From NCBI GenBank assembly GCA_025054775.1, contig JANWZA010000002.1, positions 1-64,000 on the forward strand: a DNA stretch of 64,000 nucleotides, in the 5' to 3' direction. A program made the position numbers and the translations under genes. Origin of the DNA: Microscillaceae bacterium (GTDB taxonomy: Bacteria; Bacteroidota; Bacteroidia; Cytophagales; Microscillaceae). The notes under the pieces are model-generated. The model was given only the letters and a program-made list of their open reading frames with translations, was not told the origin of the DNA and did no database searches. Below, piece after piece: positions 6,221 through 57,800 of the stretch (positions are counted from its first letter, which is position 1; each line of letters starts with the position of its first letter).

Positions 6221-8281
6221 TTATGTGGGTTTGAATTTAACTACTAATGCCGTAAAATCATCGTGAATTTCTGTATTGTTTACAAAAGTTTTAATTTGCT
6301 TGTAAATACCTCTAATGATTTCGCGTGCTGTGGCATTAGCTTGTGCTTGTAAAAAATCTCTTAACCGGTCGTAACCATACTCCTCGCCTTGTTGGTTACG
6401 TGCTTCGTTTACGCCATCAGTATAGAGAAAAAGTATGTCGTGAGGTTTATACGAAATTGTTTTTGTTTCTAGAAAATCTCCATATTGTAGCGAATTTCTG
6501 AGCATAGCTAATGCCAAACCTTTGTCTTGTAAGTAACAGGCTTTTTGCGAACAGGCATGGTAATAAAGAGTAGGGACATGCCCTGCTCGTGTGATTTCAA
6601 GTGTTTGTTTTCCAGAGTCAATCAATACTACAGTAGCAGTAAGAAAAGTAGATTTATCTAAACAGTTACTTAGCACTTGGTTAGCAGTAATAAGAAAAGT
6701 ATAAGTATCTAAGCCCAGATGTGCCAAACTTTGGAATATTCCTTTCATTTGTGCCATGCTAAATGCTGCCATGCTACCTTTTCCTGAAACATCTGCCACT
6801 ATGCACATCATATGCAAAGGGCTAATTTGAAAATAGTCATAATAATCACCACCAACTTGGTAGGCCGCTTCTGAGAAACCTGCCATATCAAGGTAAGGGT
6901 GTTTCTCGGGTAAAGCAGGTAAAAGTTTTCGTTGTACGGTGCGGGCAATTTGGATTTCTTGTTTATATCGCTCTGCTTCTAAGGTTTTGGTCAGTAAGCG
7001 TAAGTTAGAGATAGCAATGCTAGTTTGATTGACAAAAGTGTTGATAATACTCAAATCATTGCTAAAGTCGTGTTTTGCTTTTTTGAGCAGGGTCAAAGTT
7101 CCTAGGTGTTTATCATAAGAGTTAAGTGAGGCTACATACACCGAAGCGAAGCCCATTTTTTGTAATTCTTTTTCCCATTCTTGGTTCTTAGTGGAACTTC
7201 CCATAATGCTCAACATACTATCTAATCGGTTTTTGCGTAGCCATGCTTTCAAAGTCTTAACAAACTCCTCGCTTAAGTTTTTAGGAATAATGGCTTGGGG
7301 TGTACCATTTTCATCTAGTATTTCCAGCAGTGCGGCGTCAGCTTCTAAGGTGTTAATAGCAATATCTAGTAAAATTCCATATACTTTCTCCTCTTTATCT
7401 CCTACGCTCAAAACCTGTACTAATCGCTGAAAGCTAACAATCTCTTCATTTCGTTTTTCTAAAACAGGCGTTATAGGTATATTAAACAAGAGCACTAAAA
7501 GTGAGAAAATATTGTAAAAAATACAAAATGAAAAAAGAGCTAACACATAAACGCTATGAGACAGGTCTGTCCAGAGGTAAGGATTAGTGGAATGAATAAT
7601 AAGGGTACGAAAGAAAAATATCAAAAAGAAAGCGATCAATGCTATTAAAGATACTACTTGCCATTGTTGCCCTGTACGTAAATAGGCTATCCATTTCAAA
7701 TTGACTGAGAAGTATAAACCAATTCCTAAGAGTAGAAGAAAACTTGCTAGAAAGAAGAGGTTATCAATGCCTAATTCAAAAAAATTGAATAAGAGGCTAG
7801 CTAAAAGTAAGTATTCAAAAACTTTCCACCAACGTTGTAATTTTTCTACATTTTGATACAATACAAATACTTTCCAAGTAAAAAATATTTGTGTGAGAAA
7901 GAGGGTAGCTAAAGAAACTTGAATGTGGTAAAGCAGATTCATGCTATTAGCTTTCTGCTCGTCAATAGGAGGTTTTTCTAAAAATACGAAAAAAAATTGG
8001 ATAATTAACGAACTTACGAAAGCAATCAGCCCTAAAATAAAAGCATTGCGTAATAGCTTGAAGATATCCTCTATCTTAAATTCTTTAATTTTACCTTGAA
8101 AATAGAAAAAGATTACCAAAAACCATACATTCAGCAACAGCCCTTTGATGTAGAAATTGATAGAGAGGTGCTGCTTGTCGCTAAACCCAAAAATAGCCAA
8201 TAGGTTAATACATAGTAGTAAGAGCCAACTCACTACGTTCACATATAAAAAAATACCAATTGCACTATAGGGTTTATGCAT
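6221..8281 (-). CDS. Membrane GAF-SpoIIE (PPM-type) serine/threonine phosphatase
   Basis: The 686-residue protein begins with about eight membrane segments (within 7-270), followed by a GAF-like sensor domain (about 285-430), a short helical linker and a SpoIIE/PP2C domain (about 465-686). The metal-binding motifs of PPM phosphatases are complete: VGGDYYDYF, VADVSGKG, LYTDGVNEA and HDDFTALVV. Such proteins dephosphorylate regulatory phosphoproteins, often anti-sigma-factor antagonists, in response to a membrane or small-molecule signal. The gene begins only 16 nt after guaB ends and reads the same way, so it is probably cotranscribed with IMP dehydrogenase. No STAS or RsbW gene lies next to it, so its substrate is unknown. 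Confidence 0.9.
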   Translation of the reverse strand: MHKPYSAIGIFLYVNVVSWLLLLCINLLAIFGFSDKQHLSINFYIKGLLLNVWFLVIFFYFQGKIKEFKIEDIFKLLRNAFILGLIAFVSSLIIQFFFVFLEKPPIDEQKANSMNLLYHIQVSLATLFLTQIFFTWKVFVLYQNVEKLQRWWKVFEYLLLASLLFNFFELGIDNLFFLASFLLLLGIGLYFSVNLKWIAYLRTGQQWQVVSLIALIAFFLIFFFRTLIIHSTNPYLWTDLSHSVYVLALFSFCIFYNIFSLLVLLFNIPITPVLEKRNEEIVSFQRLVQVLSVGDKEEKVYGILLDIAINTLEADAALLEILDENGTPQAIIPKNLSEEFVKTLKAWLRKNRLDSMLSIMGSSTKNQEWEKELQKMGFASVYVASLNSYDKHLGTLTLLKKAKHDFSNDLSIINTFVNQTSIAISNLRLLTKTLEAERYKQEIQIARTVQRKLLPALPEKHPYLDMAGFSEAAYQVGGDYYDYFQISPLHMMCIVADVSGKGSMAAFSMAQMKGIFQSLAHLGLDTYTFLITANQVLSNCLDKSTFLTATVVLIDSGKQTLEITRAGHVPTLYYHACSQKACYLQDKGLALAMLRNSLQYGDFLETKTISYKPHDILFLYTDGVNEARNQQGEEYGYDRLRDFLQAQANATAREIIRGIYKQIKTFVNNTEIHDDFTALVVKFKPT

Positions 8282-41974: not shown

Positions 41975-44659
41975 TCAAGTATTATTAACAACTTGAAAGT
42001 TATTATCTAACTCTTTTGAAATTACTGAAACACCAATGATTTTATTTTTTTGTTTTACAGGATTGATAAAGTACCGTCTTCGTTGATTAGGGGATAATGG
42101 ATTTTCTTTAATAAAGCTAAAAGACTCGCCACTCAATCCACGATCATAGTAACCTTTCCACTCTTCGGCCAAGTCTCCTAATGTTTCTAGTATATTACTT
42201 CCTATGTCAATTCGGTAAGATGTATTTTCATATTGCTTTTTAAGTATTTCGTTTAATAGTATAATTTTGTACTCACGGTTAATTACTAGAATAGACTCTT
42301 CAATACTACTCAAAATAGCGTTAAGTATATCTTGTTGCTGTTCAAAACTATATGTCTTTTTTTGTAGCATTTCTTGAGTTTGAAGCATAGCTTCTGTACT
42401 TTGTTTAGCTATTATTTCTTGTTCAGCAAGCTGAGCGGTTTTCTCTTGAGAGGTAATAAGTGTTTTTTCAAGCACTTCTTCTGTTTTTTTAAGATGGGTA
42501 ATATCTGAAAACATTCCACTATAAATCACGGCTTGGTCTTCAGAGACTTGGGGACGCGCAGTACTTGATACCCATTTCTCAGTTCCATCAGGCTGAATAA
42601 TTTTACCTTGCCATTCCCAAATTGTACGCGTTTTGATAGATTTTCTGAAGCTTTCAGCTAAGTCCTGTAGAAAGTCAGGGTGGATAATTTTGAAGAAGTT
42701 ATCTGAGTCCTTTAATAATTCCTGTGGTTCAAGTCCAAAAATTTCTTTTGTTCCTGAACTTACATATAAGAACTCGGCTTTTTCTCCTTTTTTCTTTTTA
42801 TATTGAAAGATTACTCCAGGTACGGCATCGGTCATTTGTTCAAAATTTTGTTTGGCTTTTTCAATTTTTGCTTTCACATGCAAAATTTCTAGTTCTTTTT
42901 GTTGTGCTTCTTGTAGTAGCTTTTCTAGTTGCAAACTTTTGTATTTCGTTTCCTCTTGGGAGGCTTGCAGCTCCTCGTAATTTTGTCGCATTTCTTCCTC
43001 TTGAGTTTTTAGCATATCTGCTTGTTTTTGGGTTTCCAAGAGTAGTTTTTGAGTTTTATCATTAGCTTTAATAGTGAGGAGGTTAGCAGCAATATTTTCT
43101 GCTAATCGTTCTATGAACTCAATTTGGTAAGGTGGCATTGGTTTAATGGAGGCTAGTTCTACCACTCCTTCCACTTTTTCGTTCAATTTTAATGGTACAA
43201 TCAGTAAGAACTTGGGTTTTGCCTTTCCTGAGGCAGAGGAGATTTGCACATAATCATTGGGAATATCAGTAAAAATGAGGGTGCGAGCCTCTTTGAAGCA
43301 TTGCCCTACTAATCCTTCTGCAAATCTTTGGTGAATTTTAATTTTTTCTCTTTTTAGATTTTTATCATTTAGTCCATAGCCTGCAAATAGCTCCAAGTAA
43401 GGTTCTTGTGGATTATCTTCATTCAAGATGTAAAAGCATCCGTTTTGTGCTTCTACGTACTTAGTCATTTGCCAGATAATTGTCTCTGCCCAAAGTTTCA
43501 AATTTTCTTTATTTTCGCGAAGCATTATTACAAATTTTGACAGTCCTTCGGTAGTCCATTTCCGAATAAAATCCTTTTCACTGGATTTTTGTAGTTTTTG
43601 CGACATTTGCAGGAGCGCATTTCCTAGCATGTCCTGTTGGCTCACGGGTTCAAAAGGTGTATCAAAACGTCCTTCTCCAATTTCTAAGGCAAAGAGGCTT
43701 GTTCTACGCAGGCGTTTAGAAAGTGTATTAGCACTTTTCACTATGTCTGCAAATTCATTATCAGGTACTTTGGCTACACGTATTAATTCCCCATCGGCTA
43801 ATTGATTAAGCATAAAAGCTGGCTGTGCGATTGATTCTTGAAATTTGCGCGTAAGGCTGTAAGTAAGGCTAATAATAATAAGGAGAGCAAAAATGGTAGC
43901 AATAACAATAAAAGTGCTTAATTGATTTAATTCTTTATTAACACGTTTAAGCTCGTCTTCTAATAGCTTATTAGAGGAGGAGGACAATCGGATCAAGATT
44001 TGACGTAATTCCTTAAATTCAGCATCTTTGTTTTCCAACAACTCGTTAAATGTGGTTTGTAGTTTTGCTTCTTGTTCTATGTAAGCGCGTAGGGTTTGTT
44101 TAGCTAGGGTATCTTGCTTAATGTAAAACTTACGATAGCTCACTTGCCTTTCAAAGTCTTTATCTAAACTTTGTTGTTTTTTTTGAAGTTTGGGTAAAAG
44201 TTTCTGAATACTATCCAAACGGGCTTTATTCTCTTTCTCTAGGACCTTATCTTTAAGGCTCAAAAGTTCTTTGCTTTGCTTGCTGATAATTGCTTCCCAA
44301 AGGAAATCACGGTCTCTTAGATATTTCTTATCTTGGGTCATCCAATATGACTTTTGTAAGGAAATTGAACGGTTAAGCGAGCTAACTAAGGCATTAGATA
44401 AAGCAGGTATTTTAGAGCGAACCTCTTCTACATATTGATTAAGCGAGGTAGTACGTTGGTTTTGATAAAGAGTTAGCGAATTAGTAATGATCAAAATACT
44501 TAAAAAGGAGAAGGTGAGCCAAACAATTTTACCTGTAATGGTACGTATATTCCAATAGTTCTTGATAGATTTCAAAGGAGTAGTACTGGTTTTTTCTAAT
44601 TTGTTTGTAGTTTTTTTATCATCTTGGGCGATATTTTTCACTTTGCTTTGCTTCTCCAT
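41975..44659 (-). CDS. Membrane GAF/PAS sensor without a kinase or other output domain
   Basis: The 894-residue protein has a Lys-rich cytoplasmic start, a membrane segment (about 44-64), a helical extracytoplasmic domain of about 185 residues, a second membrane segment (FIVIATIFALLIIISLTYSL, about 250-270) and a HAMP linker. Then come a GAF domain (about 375-540, with NGCFYILNED and GLVGQCFKE), a coiled coil (about 545-605), a PAS domain (about 608-730), another short coiled coil and a second PAS near 780-885. The protein then ends. There is no HisKA, HATPase, GGDEF, phosphatase or receiver domain. Similar kinase-less proteins are common in Cytophagales. The signal may pass through coiled coils to a partner protein, which remains unidentified. 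Confidence 0.9.
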   Translation of the reverse strand: MEKQSKVKNIAQDDKKTTNKLEKTSTTPLKSIKNYWNIRTITGKIVWLTFSFLSILIITNSLTLYQNQRTTSLNQYVEEVRSKIPALSNALVSSLNRSISLQKSYWMTQDKKYLRDRDFLWEAIISKQSKELLSLKDKVLEKENKARLDSIQKLLPKLQKKQQSLDKDFERQVSYRKFYIKQDTLAKQTLRAYIEQEAKLQTTFNELLENKDAEFKELRQILIRLSSSSNKLLEDELKRVNKELNQLSTFIVIATIFALLIIISLTYSLTRKFQESIAQPAFMLNQLADGELIRVAKVPDNEFADIVKSANTLSKRLRRTSLFALEIGEGRFDTPFEPVSQQDMLGNALLQMSQKLQKSSEKDFIRKWTTEGLSKFVIMLRENKENLKLWAETIIWQMTKYVEAQNGCFYILNEDNPQEPYLELFAGYGLNDKNLKREKIKIHQRFAEGLVGQCFKEARTLIFTDIPNDYVQISSASGKAKPKFLLIVPLKLNEKVEGVVELASIKPMPPYQIEFIERLAENIAANLLTIKANDKTQKLLLETQKQADMLKTQEEEMRQNYEELQASQEETKYKSLQLEKLLQEAQQKELEILHVKAKIEKAKQNFEQMTDAVPGVIFQYKKKKGEKAEFLYVSSGTKEIFGLEPQELLKDSDNFFKIIHPDFLQDLAESFRKSIKTRTIWEWQGKIIQPDGTEKWVSSTARPQVSEDQAVIYSGMFSDITHLKKTEEVLEKTLITSQEKTAQLAEQEIIAKQSTEAMLQTQEMLQKKTYSFEQQQDILNAILSSIEESILVINREYKIILLNEILKKQYENTSYRIDIGSNILETLGDLAEEWKGYYDRGLSGESFSFIKENPLSPNQRRRYFINPVKQKNKIIGVSVISKELDNNFQVVNNT

Positions 44660-47864: not shown

Positions 47865-50471
47865 ATGTTTGCTAATTCTATTGCTCGCCAACTTTACTTC
47901 TGTCGATTTTGTTTAATCAGGGGAATAACCATTCTTGTTATTGCCTGTATATGCTTCTCTCCTGCTCCTGCCCAGCAAACTACTATTAGTGAACTTTTAG
48001 CCCAACTTAACCAGGCTAAAAAAGATGAGCAAAAAATAAATCTACAAAATCAAATTGCTCTGGAATACCAAAAACAGGAAGCCCATAGCAAGGCCATAGA
48101 ATATTACCAAAAATCCTATAATCTGCTTAAAAATACGGATAAGAATAGTCAAAAAATTGCAATTCTAAAAGGCATAGCCCTTTCCCAAGTGCAAATAAAA
48201 GACTACAAAAATGCTATCCAAACACAAAAGGAGATTTTAGCCATCTACAAACAACAAAATGACAACCCCAACATTGTGAGTACCTTGCAAGAAATAGCTA
48301 ATCTCAATCGCATAGAGGGTAATTACCAAGATGCTTTACAAAACAATTTGGAAATCTTAGAGGTTTATCAAAAGAATTCACAAATCCAAAATCAAAATAA
48401 TTTAGCCCTTACCTACAACAACATTGGATACCTTTATAGGCAATTAGGCGACAATACGCAATCAGCCAAATATTTTGACCGAGCTTTAGAAATAAATTCT
48501 AAACTCCCACAGGCTCAAAACCAGCAAGTACTTACTTTGCTCAACCGAGGGGTTACTTTTTCAAATACTAACAGCTTCAAGTTAGCTGAGCAACAATATA
48601 ATGAAGCCCTGAAAATAGCAGAAAAAAATAATAACAAACAACAAATTGCTACAATCAATAATTACCTCGCTGCCAACGCCTATATTGCAGGCAATAATAC
48701 CCAAGCCCTAGAATATGCCCAAAGAGCTATTGAAATTGCCGAGCCTAATCAAATGGAGGACGTCATGATGATTAGCTACAAAATCTTATCTGACGTGTAT
48801 AGCAAAGAGGACGACCTGCGACAATCGCAAAAATACTATAAGCTTTACCAAGACCTCAAAGAAAAAGCCAACCAAAAAGGTATAAAACAGCAACAACAAC
48901 TCATGGAACGCCAAGTAGAGGTAGAAAAAAAAGAAAGTGAAATAAAATCTATCTTGGCAGAAAACGAACGTAAAGAAGCCCAAATTCGTGAAAGTAAGTT
49001 GGAGGCAGAAAAAAAACAACAGGAACTCATCTTAAAAGAACAGGAACTTGCCCTACTCAAAGAACGTGAGAGCAGGCAACAAGCCGAAATACGTAACCAA
49101 CAATTAGAAAAAGATCGCTTACAACAACTTTTAGCCCTTACTCAACAACGAGCCGAAGCCGAAAGACAACGACAAGAAATTAGCCTCTTACAAAAAAATA
49201 AAGAACTTCAGGATATTAAACTTAAAGAACAAGCCGCCCAAGATGAAGCCCGCAAAAAAGCCCTTGAAGCTGCCGAAAAAGACCGCCAACTCGTAAAACA
49301 ACGCTTAGAGGACGAAGCGAAAATTAAACTTTACCTCTATGGGGTACTAGCACTTATTGCCTTGGTGCTAATCTTAGTGATAGTTGGGCTTATCAATGCC
49401 CGACGCACAAGCAAAAAACTTAGAGAACAAAACGAGGAAATTGAAGCCCAAAGACAAGAAATATTAACTAATAATGAAGAACTTCAACAAAGCCAAGAAG
49501 AAATTATTGCACAAAGAGATTACATTGAAGCACAAAATAAAGAACTCAGACGTAGCCAAGAACTTTTAGAGCAACACATGGCTGTACTGGCAGAAGCTAA
49601 TGAAAAACTACGAAATAACGAGGCAATCTTGCGTGAATCCTATGAAAAAATAAAACGAAGTGAAGAAACTATACGCGAGCAAAATAAAGTACTGCAAGAT
49701 ATCAACTCTCGTATCAATAGTAGCATTAAAGCCGCACTCACTATTCAAAAAGCTATATTGCCTTATCAAGCCAAAATGGAAGCCCTGTTCCACGATTATT
49801 TCGTTCTCTATAGGCCCAAAGATATTGTCTCTGGGGATTTCTATTGGATAAATAAAATTGAAGATAAAATTTTTGTAATTGCTGCTGATTGCACAGGGCA
49901 TGGAGTCCCCGGAGCTTTTATGACCTTAATCGGTAATAATCTATTAGATAAAATTATACGTGTGTGGGATATTCACAACCCTGCTCAAATTCTAAACCGC
50001 CTTCATGACGAGGTACAGACCGTCCTTCGGCAAAAAGATACAAGCAACAACAGCGGTATGGACTTAGCTGTCGTGGTTTATCGTGCATTAGATACCCAAA
50101 CCCTAGAAATTACATTTTCAGGAGCAAAGCGACCACTTTATTACTTACCCAAAGGAGAAACTAAAATCCAAGAACTCAAAGGTGATAGAAAATCTATCGG
50201 AGGTGAGCAGAATGAAGAAAAGGAATTTACTAACCAAGTAATCCAACTCCCTGTAGATAGCATCCTATATATGTGTAGCGATGGCTTCGCTGACCAAAAT
50301 AATGATAAACGTAAACGATTCGGGGAAAAACAAATGTTGGAAATTCTAGAAAAAAATTCGCACCTGCCTCTTAAAGAGCAACACACCGCTCTTGAAAAAG
50401 CTATGCAAGAACATATACAAAATACCGAACAACGCGATGATATGCTCGTGCTTGGAATACAAATTATTTAA
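47865..50471 (+). CDS. Exported-TPR, membrane-anchored SpoIIE (PPM) phosphatase
   Basis: The 868-residue protein has a signal peptide (cleavage near PAPAQQ, about 37), an outside region of TPR repeats (about 45-340, for example NIGYLYRQLGDNTQSAKYF), a long Gln/Glu/Lys coiled coil (about 345-485), a membrane segment (about 490-511), an inside coiled coil (about 515-625) and a SpoIIE phosphatase domain (about 630-868). Metal-binding motifs are complete: IVSGDFYWI, IAADCTGHGVPGAFM, LYMCSDGFADQN and RDDMLVLGI. The design resembles SiaA of Pseudomonas, where an outside sensor is joined to a PP2C domain that dephosphorylates SiaC. The next gene, 262 nt downstream, encodes a SiaC-family protein, which supports such a pair. 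Confidence 0.92.
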   Translation: MFANSIARQLYFCRFCLIRGITILVIACICFSPAPAQQTTISELLAQLNQAKKDEQKINLQNQIALEYQKQEAHSKAIEYYQKSYNLLKNTDKNSQKIAILKGIALSQVQIKDYKNAIQTQKEILAIYKQQNDNPNIVSTLQEIANLNRIEGNYQDALQNNLEILEVYQKNSQIQNQNNLALTYNNIGYLYRQLGDNTQSAKYFDRALEINSKLPQAQNQQVLTLLNRGVTFSNTNSFKLAEQQYNEALKIAEKNNNKQQIATINNYLAANAYIAGNNTQALEYAQRAIEIAEPNQMEDVMMISYKILSDVYSKEDDLRQSQKYYKLYQDLKEKANQKGIKQQQQLMERQVEVEKKESEIKSILAENERKEAQIRESKLEAEKKQQELILKEQELALLKERESRQQAEIRNQQLEKDRLQQLLALTQQRAEAERQRQEISLLQKNKELQDIKLKEQAAQDEARKKALEAAEKDRQLVKQRLEDEAKIKLYLYGVLALIALVLILVIVGLINARRTSKKLREQNEEIEAQRQEILTNNEELQQSQEEIIAQRDYIEAQNKELRRSQELLEQHMAVLAEANEKLRNNEAILRESYEKIKRSEETIREQNKVLQDINSRINSSIKAALTIQKAILPYQAKMEALFHDYFVLYRPKDIVSGDFYWINKIEDKIFVIAADCTGHGVPGAFMTLIGNNLLDKIIRVWDIHNPAQILNRLHDEVQTVLRQKDTSNNSGMDLAVVVYRALDTQTLEITFSGAKRPLYYLPKGETKIQELKGDRKSIGGEQNEEKEFTNQVIQLPVDSILYMCSDGFADQNNDKRKRFGEKQMLEILEKNSHLPLKEQHTALEKAMQEHIQNTEQRDDMLVLGIQII

Positions 50472-50678
50472 GCATACTAAGCACAGAAACTCAATAAAAG
50501 AGTATGGCAATAGTTCAAAATGTATGATACCTGTAGTTTCACATTTGGTGGTTATTTACCAAATACTATTTATCTTGTATACTATTGCCAAAAAAACTTT
50601 TACTCCTAACTTTAGGATTTGTATACTAATTCCTTAGCTTATCATATTTAGAAACAGAATTATTTTACTAAAAATCCT

Positions 50679-50686
50679 TATTTTTG
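50679..50686 (+). promoter_or_regulatory. Candidate -7 element for the SiaC gene
   Basis: TATTTTTG matches the consensus 46 nt before the ATG at 50733. No TTG was found at 17-23 bp upstream. If used, it lets the siaC-like gene be expressed apart from the phosphatase gene. Confidence 0.35.
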
Positions 50687-50732
50687 TGCCTAAATTTATT
50701 AAGCCTAAGTTTTTATTTCTTGTGATTAAAGT

Positions 50733-51152
50733 ATGGATAGTTTGTTTATTGAAAGTACACCCGTAACCCCCGAAGTTCATTTCAACCCTGAAACAGCCAT
50801 TTTTGAAATTAAAGGAATTTCTATGCCTGAATATGCAGACGAGTTCTACAAACAACTTTTAGACTATATCCACGAATATTTAGCTACTACCGCTAACGAA
50901 ACCACTACACTTATTTTCAAATTCAATTACTTCAATACAGGCACCAGCCCTGCCGTAGAAGCCATTTTGAAAGCCTTTGAAAAAAATAAACCTGAAAAGC
51001 ACGAAGTTAAGGTAAAATGGTACTATGAAACCGAAGACGAGGATATGAAAGATTTAGGTGAGCATTATCAAAATATGACTTCACTTCCCGTAGAAATTAT
51101 TGCCTCCGATGAAACTTTCTACTCACCCCCCGAAGATGCCTCAACTGAATAA
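50733..51152 (+). CDS. SiaC family (DUF1987) regulatory phosphoprotein
   Basis: The 139-residue protein matches DUF1987: MDSLFIESTPVTPEVHFNPE opens it, and the core has FKFNYFNTGTSPAVEAILKA, where the family phosphorylation site lies on a Thr/Ser of the FNTxT turn. In Pseudomonas SiaC is phosphorylated by the kinase SiaB and dephosphorylated by SiaA, and the unphosphorylated form activates the diguanylate cyclase SiaD. Here a SiaA-like phosphatase is next to it, but SiaB- and SiaD-like genes are not in the window. The end overlaps the next gene by 17 nt. The target protein is unknown. Confidence 0.93.
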   Translation: MDSLFIESTPVTPEVHFNPETAIFEIKGISMPEYADEFYKQLLDYIHEYLATTANETTTLIFKFNYFNTGTSPAVEAILKAFEKNKPEKHEVKVKWYYETEDEDMKDLGEHYQNMTSLPVEIIASDETFYSPPEDASTE

Positions 51153-51696
51153 ATATTTTTTCTTGCTGATTTTAACTTATCTATTCACTTTGTTAGGTAA
51201 AAATCAGCAAGTATTAGCCCAAGCAAAAGTGAGCGAAATACTGAAAAAATATACAGGTACATGGCAAGGAGAACTTGGAATATGGAAAGAGAATAACCTC
51301 AAAAAAAGAGTGATTATGCAACTGCAAATTTCACCCACAAGCCAACCCAAAGTCTGGAATTGGATAATTCGCTACATAGATAAAGAGCAAACCCAAGAGC
51401 GAAAATATGAATTGATTATAAAAGACGAAAGCAAAGGCTATTGCCAAATTGACGAGAAAAACTCTATCTTTTTAGATACTCAATTGGCTGATAATAAGCT
51501 AATTAGTTGTTTTTTAGTAGAAAAAAGTTTGCTTACTACTACCTACACTTTTACCTCCAAAAGCATAGCGTTTGAAGTAATAGTAAGCCAAACTTCGCAA
51601 GCAAAAAATACAGGAGCAGGGCAGGAGAATATTCCTAGTGTGGTAGATTATGGCAATACAGTCTATCAAAAAGCAAGTTTGCGTAAGAGAAAATAA
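51136..51696 (+). CDS. Small exported protein overlapping the SiaC gene
   Basis: The 186-residue precursor has a signal peptide (MPQLNKYFFLLILTYLFTLL, cleavage near VLAQ) and a beta-rich body opening KYTGTWQGELGIWKE, which resembles lipocalin-like DUF1579-type folds, followed by KKRVIMQLQISPT. The start overlaps the SiaC stop by 17 nt in another frame, so translation of the two is coupled. I do not recognise a named family. It may act in the periplasm in the same signalling pathway; that is inferred from the overlap alone. Confidence 0.78.
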   Translation: MPQLNKYFFLLILTYLFTLLGKNQQVLAQAKVSEILKKYTGTWQGELGIWKENNLKKRVIMQLQISPTSQPKVWNWIIRYIDKEQTQERKYELIIKDESKGYCQIDEKNSIFLDTQLADNKLISCFLVEKSLLTTTYTFTSKSIAFEVIVSQTSQAKNTGAGQENIPSVVDYGNTVYQKASLRKRK

Positions 51697-57071: not shown

Positions 57072-57800
57072 TTAAAATCTAATGCGTATAATACTCACAT
57101 CATCATAGGGCTTATAGCCATATTTATTGCCTAAAATATTGCACTTTCGGACAAGCATTTGTGGATTTTCAGAAAGATTATTATCTTTTAAAAGATATTC
57201 AATAGGGTCTATATTACGGCTGGCTATTTTGATACTTCTGAACGTACTAATTCCATCACTACTAATAGCTACTTCTTTGGGCTTAGTAATTTCATAAGTA
57301 TATTTTTGGTTGTTAAACCATGTTTCAAAATCCTTATGTAAGGAATAAGCTACGTACTCAGGTGCATTGTTTTGGTCAATTTCTATTATTTCTCCGTCAA
57401 TTGCAATAAAGCCATCTCCCATAGCAATAATAAAAGCCTCTTCGCGAGCTTCATTATAGACAAGCAAGGTAATTGTGGTAAGGATTTCAGCAATTGTAAG
57501 CCCAAGTATATCTATTAGTTTAGGAAACTCTAGGAATAATTTCCGTAAAATTTCTTTGGCTATTTCACTGGATTTGAGTTGGGTATCATTTTCTAAAAAG
57601 TCTTTATAGGGGAGGTTACGAGCAATTTTACTTATTAGCTTTCCCATAAGCGAGGAGGCAAAATGAGAGTGTAGCCCTGCCGAACAACCGTCAAGAACTG
57701 CTCCAATGTAGTAAGAGTGGCTTACGTATTGCGTAACTAAAAAATCTTCACAAAATACGGGGTGCCCTTCTCCTTTTCTAATGACCGTGTAAATCTTCAT
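57072..57800 (-). CDS. PP2C-family serine/threonine phosphatase
   Basis: The 242-residue protein is a compact, soluble PPM phosphatase. Metal ligands are the Asp in PVFCEDFLVT, the Asp in IGAVLDGCSAGLHSHFA, the Asp of AISSDGISTFR and the Asp pair in KPYDDVSIIRIRF; MGDGFIAIDGE is the conserved central strand. It has no sensor domain and no membrane segment. Its gene lies directly upstream of the nucleoside transporter gene (34-nt gap), suggesting phosphorylation control of uptake or chance clustering. No serine/threonine kinase gene is in view. Confidence 0.88.
   Translation of the reverse strand: MKIYTVIRKGEGHPVFCEDFLVTQYVSHSYYIGAVLDGCSAGLHSHFASSLMGKLISKIARNLPYKDFLENDTQLKSSEIAKEILRKLFLEFPKLIDILGLTIAEILTTITLLVYNEAREEAFIIAMGDGFIAIDGEIIEIDQNNAPEYVAYSLHKDFETWFNNQKYTYEITKPKEVAISSDGISTFRSIKIASRNIDPIEYLLKDNNLSENPQMLVRKCNILGNKYGYKPYDDVSIIRIRF

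Follow-up and report, generated by a model that had tools for sequence, protein, structure and literature searches.

The window—64,000 nucleotides, corresponding to positions 1–64,000 of contig C34 in a 3.01-Mb, 99%-complete Microscillaceae assembly—contains a gene for a SiaA-like phosphatase followed on the same strand by a gene of the SiaC family (Table 1). From the N-terminus, the phosphatase is composed of a signal peptide, a periplasmic TPR array, a coiled coil, a single transmembrane helix at about residue 490, a cytoplasmic coiled coil, and a PP2C/SpoIIE domain (residues 667–866), the topology being derived from sequence. Pfam recognizes both TPR_12 (1.9e-27) and SpoIIE (6e-24), and a PDB search with the phosphatase domain returned SiaA of Pseudomonas aeruginosa as the sole strong PP2C match (6k4e, 6e-37; runner-up 0.08). 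The metal-binding aspartates are retained in the motifs SGDFYW, ADCTGHGVPG, CSDGFADQ, and QRDD. By these sequence matches the protein is a SiaA-family phosphatase with a SiaA-type PP2C domain; it scores 190 bits, over its C-terminal half only, against the cut-off of 700 for the NCBIfam SiaA equivalog NF038263. Full-length orthologues occur in 11 relatives at 37–45% identity.

Table 1. Features of the phosphatase–SiaC locus (window coordinates)
Feature	Position	Strand	Basis or remark
SiaA-family phosphatase, 868 aa	47865..50471	+	ORF, Pfam, PDB match
AT-rich intergenic region, 261 bp, 26% GC	50472..50732	+	between phosphatase and SiaC
SiaC-family protein, kinase-less 'type 2' subclade, 139 aa	50733..51152	+	Pfam, PDB, tree, residue profile
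Thr69 codon, counterpart of P. aeruginosa SiaC phospho-acceptor Thr68	50937..50939	+	alignment to 6kko
198-aa exported protein	51100..51696	+	ORF; TTG 51100, likelier start ATG 51136

The SiaC-family protein matches PF09345 (DUF1987) at 1.9e-34, with 118.4 bits against a Pfam cut-off of 24.5, and P. aeruginosa SiaC (6kko) in the PDB at 2e-10; its score for the NCBIfam SiaC equivalog NF038265 is 69.9 bits, below the cut-off of 150. SiaB phosphorylates P. aeruginosa SiaC on Thr68 (PMC7647112), and in the alignment the counterpart of this residue in the window protein is Thr69, located within YFNTG. Throughout the alignment of 103 SiaC proteins with P. aeruginosa SiaC, this column holds threonine (98) or serine (6 of 104). 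A preliminary description of the locus as a SiaA-like TPR phosphatase adjoining SiaC in the absence of siaB and siaD is therefore confirmed with respect to both open reading frames, their domains, and the conserved acceptor.

Co-transcription of the two genes is uncertain because the AT-rich gap between them may hold a promoter of its own for SiaC: a promoter-like sequence of the Bacteroidota type, TTTG-N19-TAAGTTT, is found at 50683–50712, a weak match to a pattern only, and a sigma-70 scan of the gap gave chance-level results. The small exported protein, which overlaps siaC by 53 bp from the TTG codon or by 17 bp from the likelier ATG, had been put forward as a new component of the system. 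It has zero Pfam or NCBIfam matches, its single-sequence fold reaches a pLDDT of 35, too low to be informative, and no homologue is present in any of the fetched relative loci; since no counterpart lies near SiaC in relatives, it was discarded as a component.

Two further phosphatase genes, neither of them adjoining a SiaC gene, lie on the minus strand of the window: a second SpoIIE phosphatase at 6221–8281 (146 bits, a score that ranks it in the genome's top two) and a PP2C_2 phosphatase at 57072–57800.

Kinases, cyclases, and SiaC copies in the genome and its relatives

Neither siaB (PF19788) nor GGDEF genes are found near the pair, the nearest SiaB being encoded on another contig. In the genome as a whole, 11 SiaC, 9 SiaB (DUF6272, PF19788), and 29 SpoIIE phosphatases are encoded, and the number of GGDEF domains (PF00990) is zero. 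The original view that kinase and cyclase are both missing thus holds for the surroundings of the pair and, as far as GGDEF proteins are concerned, for the entire genome, but not for the kinase, as a genome search for DUF6272 proteins recovered nine of them elsewhere. The presence of nine SiaB kinases and the lack of any GGDEF protein imply that the kinases would act in trans and that the known output is absent. SiaB-family kinases are already named as such by NCBI, and SiaA, SiaB, and SiaC are known protein families.

The same combination extends to related bacteria. The comparison set comprised 57 relatives, counting the window's own genome. Of these genomes, 44 encode SiaC and 43 encode SiaB; presence agrees in 56 of the 57, and copy numbers correlate with a rho of 0.98. 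Each of the 15 Microscillaceae members has between 7 and 44 SiaC genes (270 in total). SiaC was present in 18 of 296 genomes drawn evenly from the phylum, and more than four copies were seen only in the window's genome. A GGDEF protein was detected in one of the 57 relatives, a genome devoid of SiaC, and in none of the SiaC-bearing genomes. The expansion of SiaC therefore does not depend on GGDEF proteins making c-di-GMP, and, as Microscillaceae lack the c-di-GMP enzyme controlled in Pseudomonas, the SiaC switch must act on another target. The earlier proposal of an output different from a diguanylate cyclase is borne out to this extent.

Several unusual gene forms were encountered among the relatives. 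Apparent SiaB–SiaC fusions of 324–329 aa in one open frame occur at G325:C11:67788-68621 and G337:C72:30449-31276, and an apparent SpoIIE–SiaB fusion of 625 aa occupies a single open reading frame at locus L317. In the genome with 44 SiaC genes, two to three neighbouring copies form runs (L235, G307:C76:10659-12500; L234, G307:C58).

Gene neighbourhood and the kinase-less SiaC subclade

In none of the 11 genomes harboring a full-length orthologue of the phosphatase does SiaC lie beside it; the closest case is G302, with a SiaB–SiaC pair on the opposite strand at a distance of 2.7 kb. A comparable unit is nevertheless widespread in the family. The cassette SpoIIE–SiaB–SiaC1–TPR.SpoIIE–SiaC2 occurs in 13 of 14 Microscillaceae relatives, a count that includes copies with an absent or truncated first SpoIIE. 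Its second phosphatase is a TPR–SpoIIE protein, and the SiaC encoded behind it belongs to the subclade of the window SiaC. The exported TPR sensor, regarded at first as a special feature of the locus, is accordingly the normal architecture at this position of the cassette, and the question of neighbourhood conservation receives a divided answer: the exact pair is not conserved in the 11 genomes with a phosphatase orthologue, but the equivalent order, TPR–SpoIIE and then SiaC, is maintained in 13 of 14 family members. The recurrence of this order suggests that the window arrangement is a TPR–SpoIIE/SiaC unit of the same kind in a different genomic position, which probably came together within this lineage. 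In contrast to the cassette, the window pair stands alone, and its phosphatase, at 868 aa compared with 650–690 aa, is not an orthologue of the cassette enzyme. The cassette of the window's own genome resides on contig C29 and lacks SiaC2. Relocation of this SiaC2 to the window is unsupported, since a SiaC on contig C18 groups slightly better with SiaC2 (0.79) and the long branch of the window SiaC (0.69) also counts against it. An 894-aa membrane protein encoded in the window at 41975–44659 on the minus strand, with GAF and PAS domains and without a kinase, phosphatase, or other output domain, resembles the sensor half of the first SpoIIE phosphatase of the cassette.

In a tree of 103 SiaC proteins, the window protein groups with cassette SiaC2 proteins and the products of lone SiaC genes in a large clade restricted to the family; in a larger tree this clade comprises 42 members with moderate support (0.78). 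SiaB is encoded directly upstream of 4 of these 42 genes, compared with 43 of the 61 other SiaC genes of the family (P = 4e-10, a value that counts sequences and not independent events).

The residues of SiaC that face SiaD have been defined in the 7e6g complex (PMC8457831). At P. aeruginosa positions 69, 72, 75, and 110, the 43 SiaC proteins with an adjacent stalk gene (see below) have serine, lysine, mostly leucine, and aspartate or glutamate, respectively; the window protein has glycine, proline, glutamate, and histidine. PMC8457831 does not list position 72 among the contacts; this position was included since Lys72 is invariant across all 43 stalk-linked proteins. Judged by this residue profile, the subclade has kept the acceptor and lost part of the SiaD-docking face, and the changes at the four positions in the window SiaC therefore predict a changed or lost docking partner.

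Putative docking stalks encoded downstream of siaC

SiaD carries two SiaC-binding motifs, RLERIARISDGFQ and RLEKVARISDRYQ, both visible in 7e6g; their sequence was recovered via the SiaD of Azospirillum, a detour taken because a PDB search with the Bacteroidota protein described below gave no significant match. Scanning 2.1 Mb of fetched DNA for the motif yielded 22 matches, where residue-shuffled sequences would be expected to give 5.4; the gene immediately following siaC accounts for most of the 22. The motif-bearing stalk is combined with different partners: with a GGDEF domain in distant Bacteroidota, Paraburkholderia, and Azospirillum, with a histidine kinase in Azospirillum, or with none, as a stalk of about 80 aa. 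The commonest form in Cytophagales is a protein of 160–210 aa consisting of the stalk and two transmembrane helices, without an enzyme domain and without a Pfam family above cut-off. An alignment of this form, run against 84,980 species genomes, returned 29 proteins, two of which (L304 and L306) do not match the strict motif pattern. In 26 of the 29 loci, the nearest upstream gene on the same strand is SiaC, which was not part of the query—some of the 29 genomes had themselves supplied query sequences—and the usual order is SpoIIE–SiaB–SiaC–stalk.

We infer that SiaC could be a phospho-switch for a portable docking stalk to which exchangeable output parts are joined, and the stalk protein with two transmembrane helices is the likely SiaC output elsewhere in the phylum, as judged by this gene linkage. 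Occurrence of the SiaD docking motif in enzyme-less proteins encoded directly downstream of siaC turns this into a concrete prediction of SiaC partners. The window locus shares with the Bacteroidota stalk operons a PP2C/SiaC switch without a cyclase; those operons, however, carry a kinase and a protein with a SiaD-type docking motif beside siaC, whereas the window has neither. The motif is absent from the 198-aa exported protein directly downstream of the window siaC, and the 0.9 of 3.0 Mb scanned in the window's genome yielded no stalk protein; a stalk gene is present in the relative G301.

Other loci display variations on these parts. On plasmid AZO_p3 of Azospirillum lipoferum (L291:4408-5343), a histidine kinase with an N-terminal SiaC-docking stalk motif is encoded between siaC and siaD, so that two outputs, the cyclase and this kinase, may be under the control of a single SiaC. 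TPR proteins of about 470 aa (L322–L330) share the C-terminal transmembrane part of the two-helix stalk protein; they lack the SiaC motif and are not encoded near SiaC. A conserved SiaB–SiaC cluster with an ABC exporter (L070:2836-13405; G000:C44:72835-83404), also present in five relatives, is composed of a CheB-like gene, a transmembrane protein, a dCache-HAMP-GAF-PAS-SpoIIE protein, SiaB, SiaC, the exporter, and a lipoprotein. The exporter, TerB-ABC-ABC2 (ABCG-like) and about 1028 aa long, is a candidate SiaC output.

Proposed role of the pair and competing explanations

Taking together the domain architecture, catalytic motifs, acceptor, copy numbers, SiaB presence, GGDEF absence, synteny, and motif linkage, all of them read from sequence, it seems rather probable that the pair belongs, as a single branch, to a SiaA/SiaB/SiaC partner-switching network that has been multiplied, is supplied with SiaB in trans, and is directed at a non-cyclase target. 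The periplasmic TPR part would sense a signal or a partner and, via the transmembrane helix and coiled coil, activate the PP2C domain, which would then dephosphorylate phospho-Thr69 of the neighbouring SiaC. Opposing phosphorylation of Thr69 would be provided in trans by at least one of the nine SiaB kinases. Unphosphorylated SiaC would bind a helical target that the phosphorylated form would not bind, the direction of control being taken from P. aeruginosa. The target should not be a diguanylate cyclase; since the docking face of the subclade is altered, the window SiaC probably has a different target or a role in tuning the network through competition for kinase and phosphatase.

The main rival holds that the two genes are neighbours by chance: the TPR phosphatase would have a different SiaC, or a STAS protein encoded elsewhere, as its substrate, and the adjoining SiaC would serve other SiaA and SiaB proteins from a promoter of its own. 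Preservation of the exact pair in 0 of the 11 genomes with a full-length phosphatase orthologue, the 261-bp gap with its promoter-like site, and a genome holding 29 SpoIIE, 11 SiaC, and 3 STAS domains would all fit such a situation, and the chance that one of 11 SiaC genes lies directly behind a SpoIIE gene is about 0.06 (an estimate based on 29 SpoIIE among ~2,700 genes). Yet order and domain architecture match the TPR–SpoIIE–SiaC2 end of the conserved cassette, and the window SiaC shares its subclade with SiaC2. This recurrence argues against a chance neighbourhood, which is considered unlikely while retaining some weight.

SiaC of this subclade, its effector-docking face lost, might alternatively serve as a phosphate buffer or decoy that mainly competes with other SiaC proteins for SiaB and SiaA and thereby sets thresholds in the network. 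The acceptor is kept while residues 69, 72, 75, and 110 change, and the subclade is rarely accompanied by its own kinase, its cassette members sharing their locus with another SiaC and adjoining the second phosphatase, as such a function would lead one to expect. Tyr65, Asn67, and an acidic residue at position 103 are conserved, however, and a changed face could just as well point to a new partner, so that a pure buffer appears distinctly improbable.

A canonical SiaABCD pathway that has only been broken up, its siaB and siaD lying at other genomic sites, accounts for the SiaB kinases on other contigs but can practically be dismissed in view of the zero GGDEF proteins in this 99%-complete genome and in the SiaC-bearing genomes among the 57 relatives, and of NCBIfam scores for both proteins that fall well short of the equivalog cut-offs for SiaA and SiaC. 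With P. aeruginosa SiaABCD (PMC7647112, PMC8457831), the locus and its genome share a SiaA-type PP2C domain with its catalytic motifs, the SiaC threonine acceptor, and SiaB-family kinases. They differ in the TPR sensor, the lack of siaB beside siaC and of any SiaD/GGDEF protein, the altered docking face, and the occurrence of 11 SiaC and 29 SpoIIE proteins instead of a single operon. The preliminary interpretation of the locus is partly supported by these comparisons.

In the literature searched, which did not extend to subscription journals and preprints, no description of SiaABC in Bacteroidota was found; SiaC biology is known there only from Pseudomonas and only in the form of a c-di-GMP regulator, and the single paper there that mentions DUF1987 by name leaves its role in other bacteria open. 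These sources thus appear to hold no description of a many-copy SiaABC network lacking cyclases, of a kinase-less subclade of SiaC, or of a stalk output that is not an enzyme, and here one bacterial family is seen to use SiaC with no diguanylate cyclase, the copy number reaching 44 per genome. It can be proposed, as a tentative generalization, that SiaC is a general switch for a portable stalk, that in Bacteroidota without c-di-GMP it was multiplied into networks comprising tens of SiaA/SiaB/SiaC proteins, which drive stalk proteins with two transmembrane helices, ABC exporters, and other outputs, and that the kinase-less subclade represented in the window acquired either a different partner or a buffering function.

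Partner switching by a PP2C phosphatase, a GHKL-fold kinase, and a small phospho-switch protein is also the principle of the RsbU/RsbW/RsbV and SpoIIE/SpoIIAB/SpoIIAA systems, although SiaC is only structurally related to STAS. The window system has the phosphatase, the kinase, and the small switch protein in common with these systems and differs from them in that no sigma factor is linked to it. The window's genome additionally encodes three STAS domains and at least two RsbW-like kinases, among them a STAS/RsbW pair on contig C23, which shows that an ordinary STAS/RsbW partner switch exists alongside the SiaC proteins; some of the SpoIIE phosphatases could have STAS/RsbW-like proteins as their substrates or partners instead.
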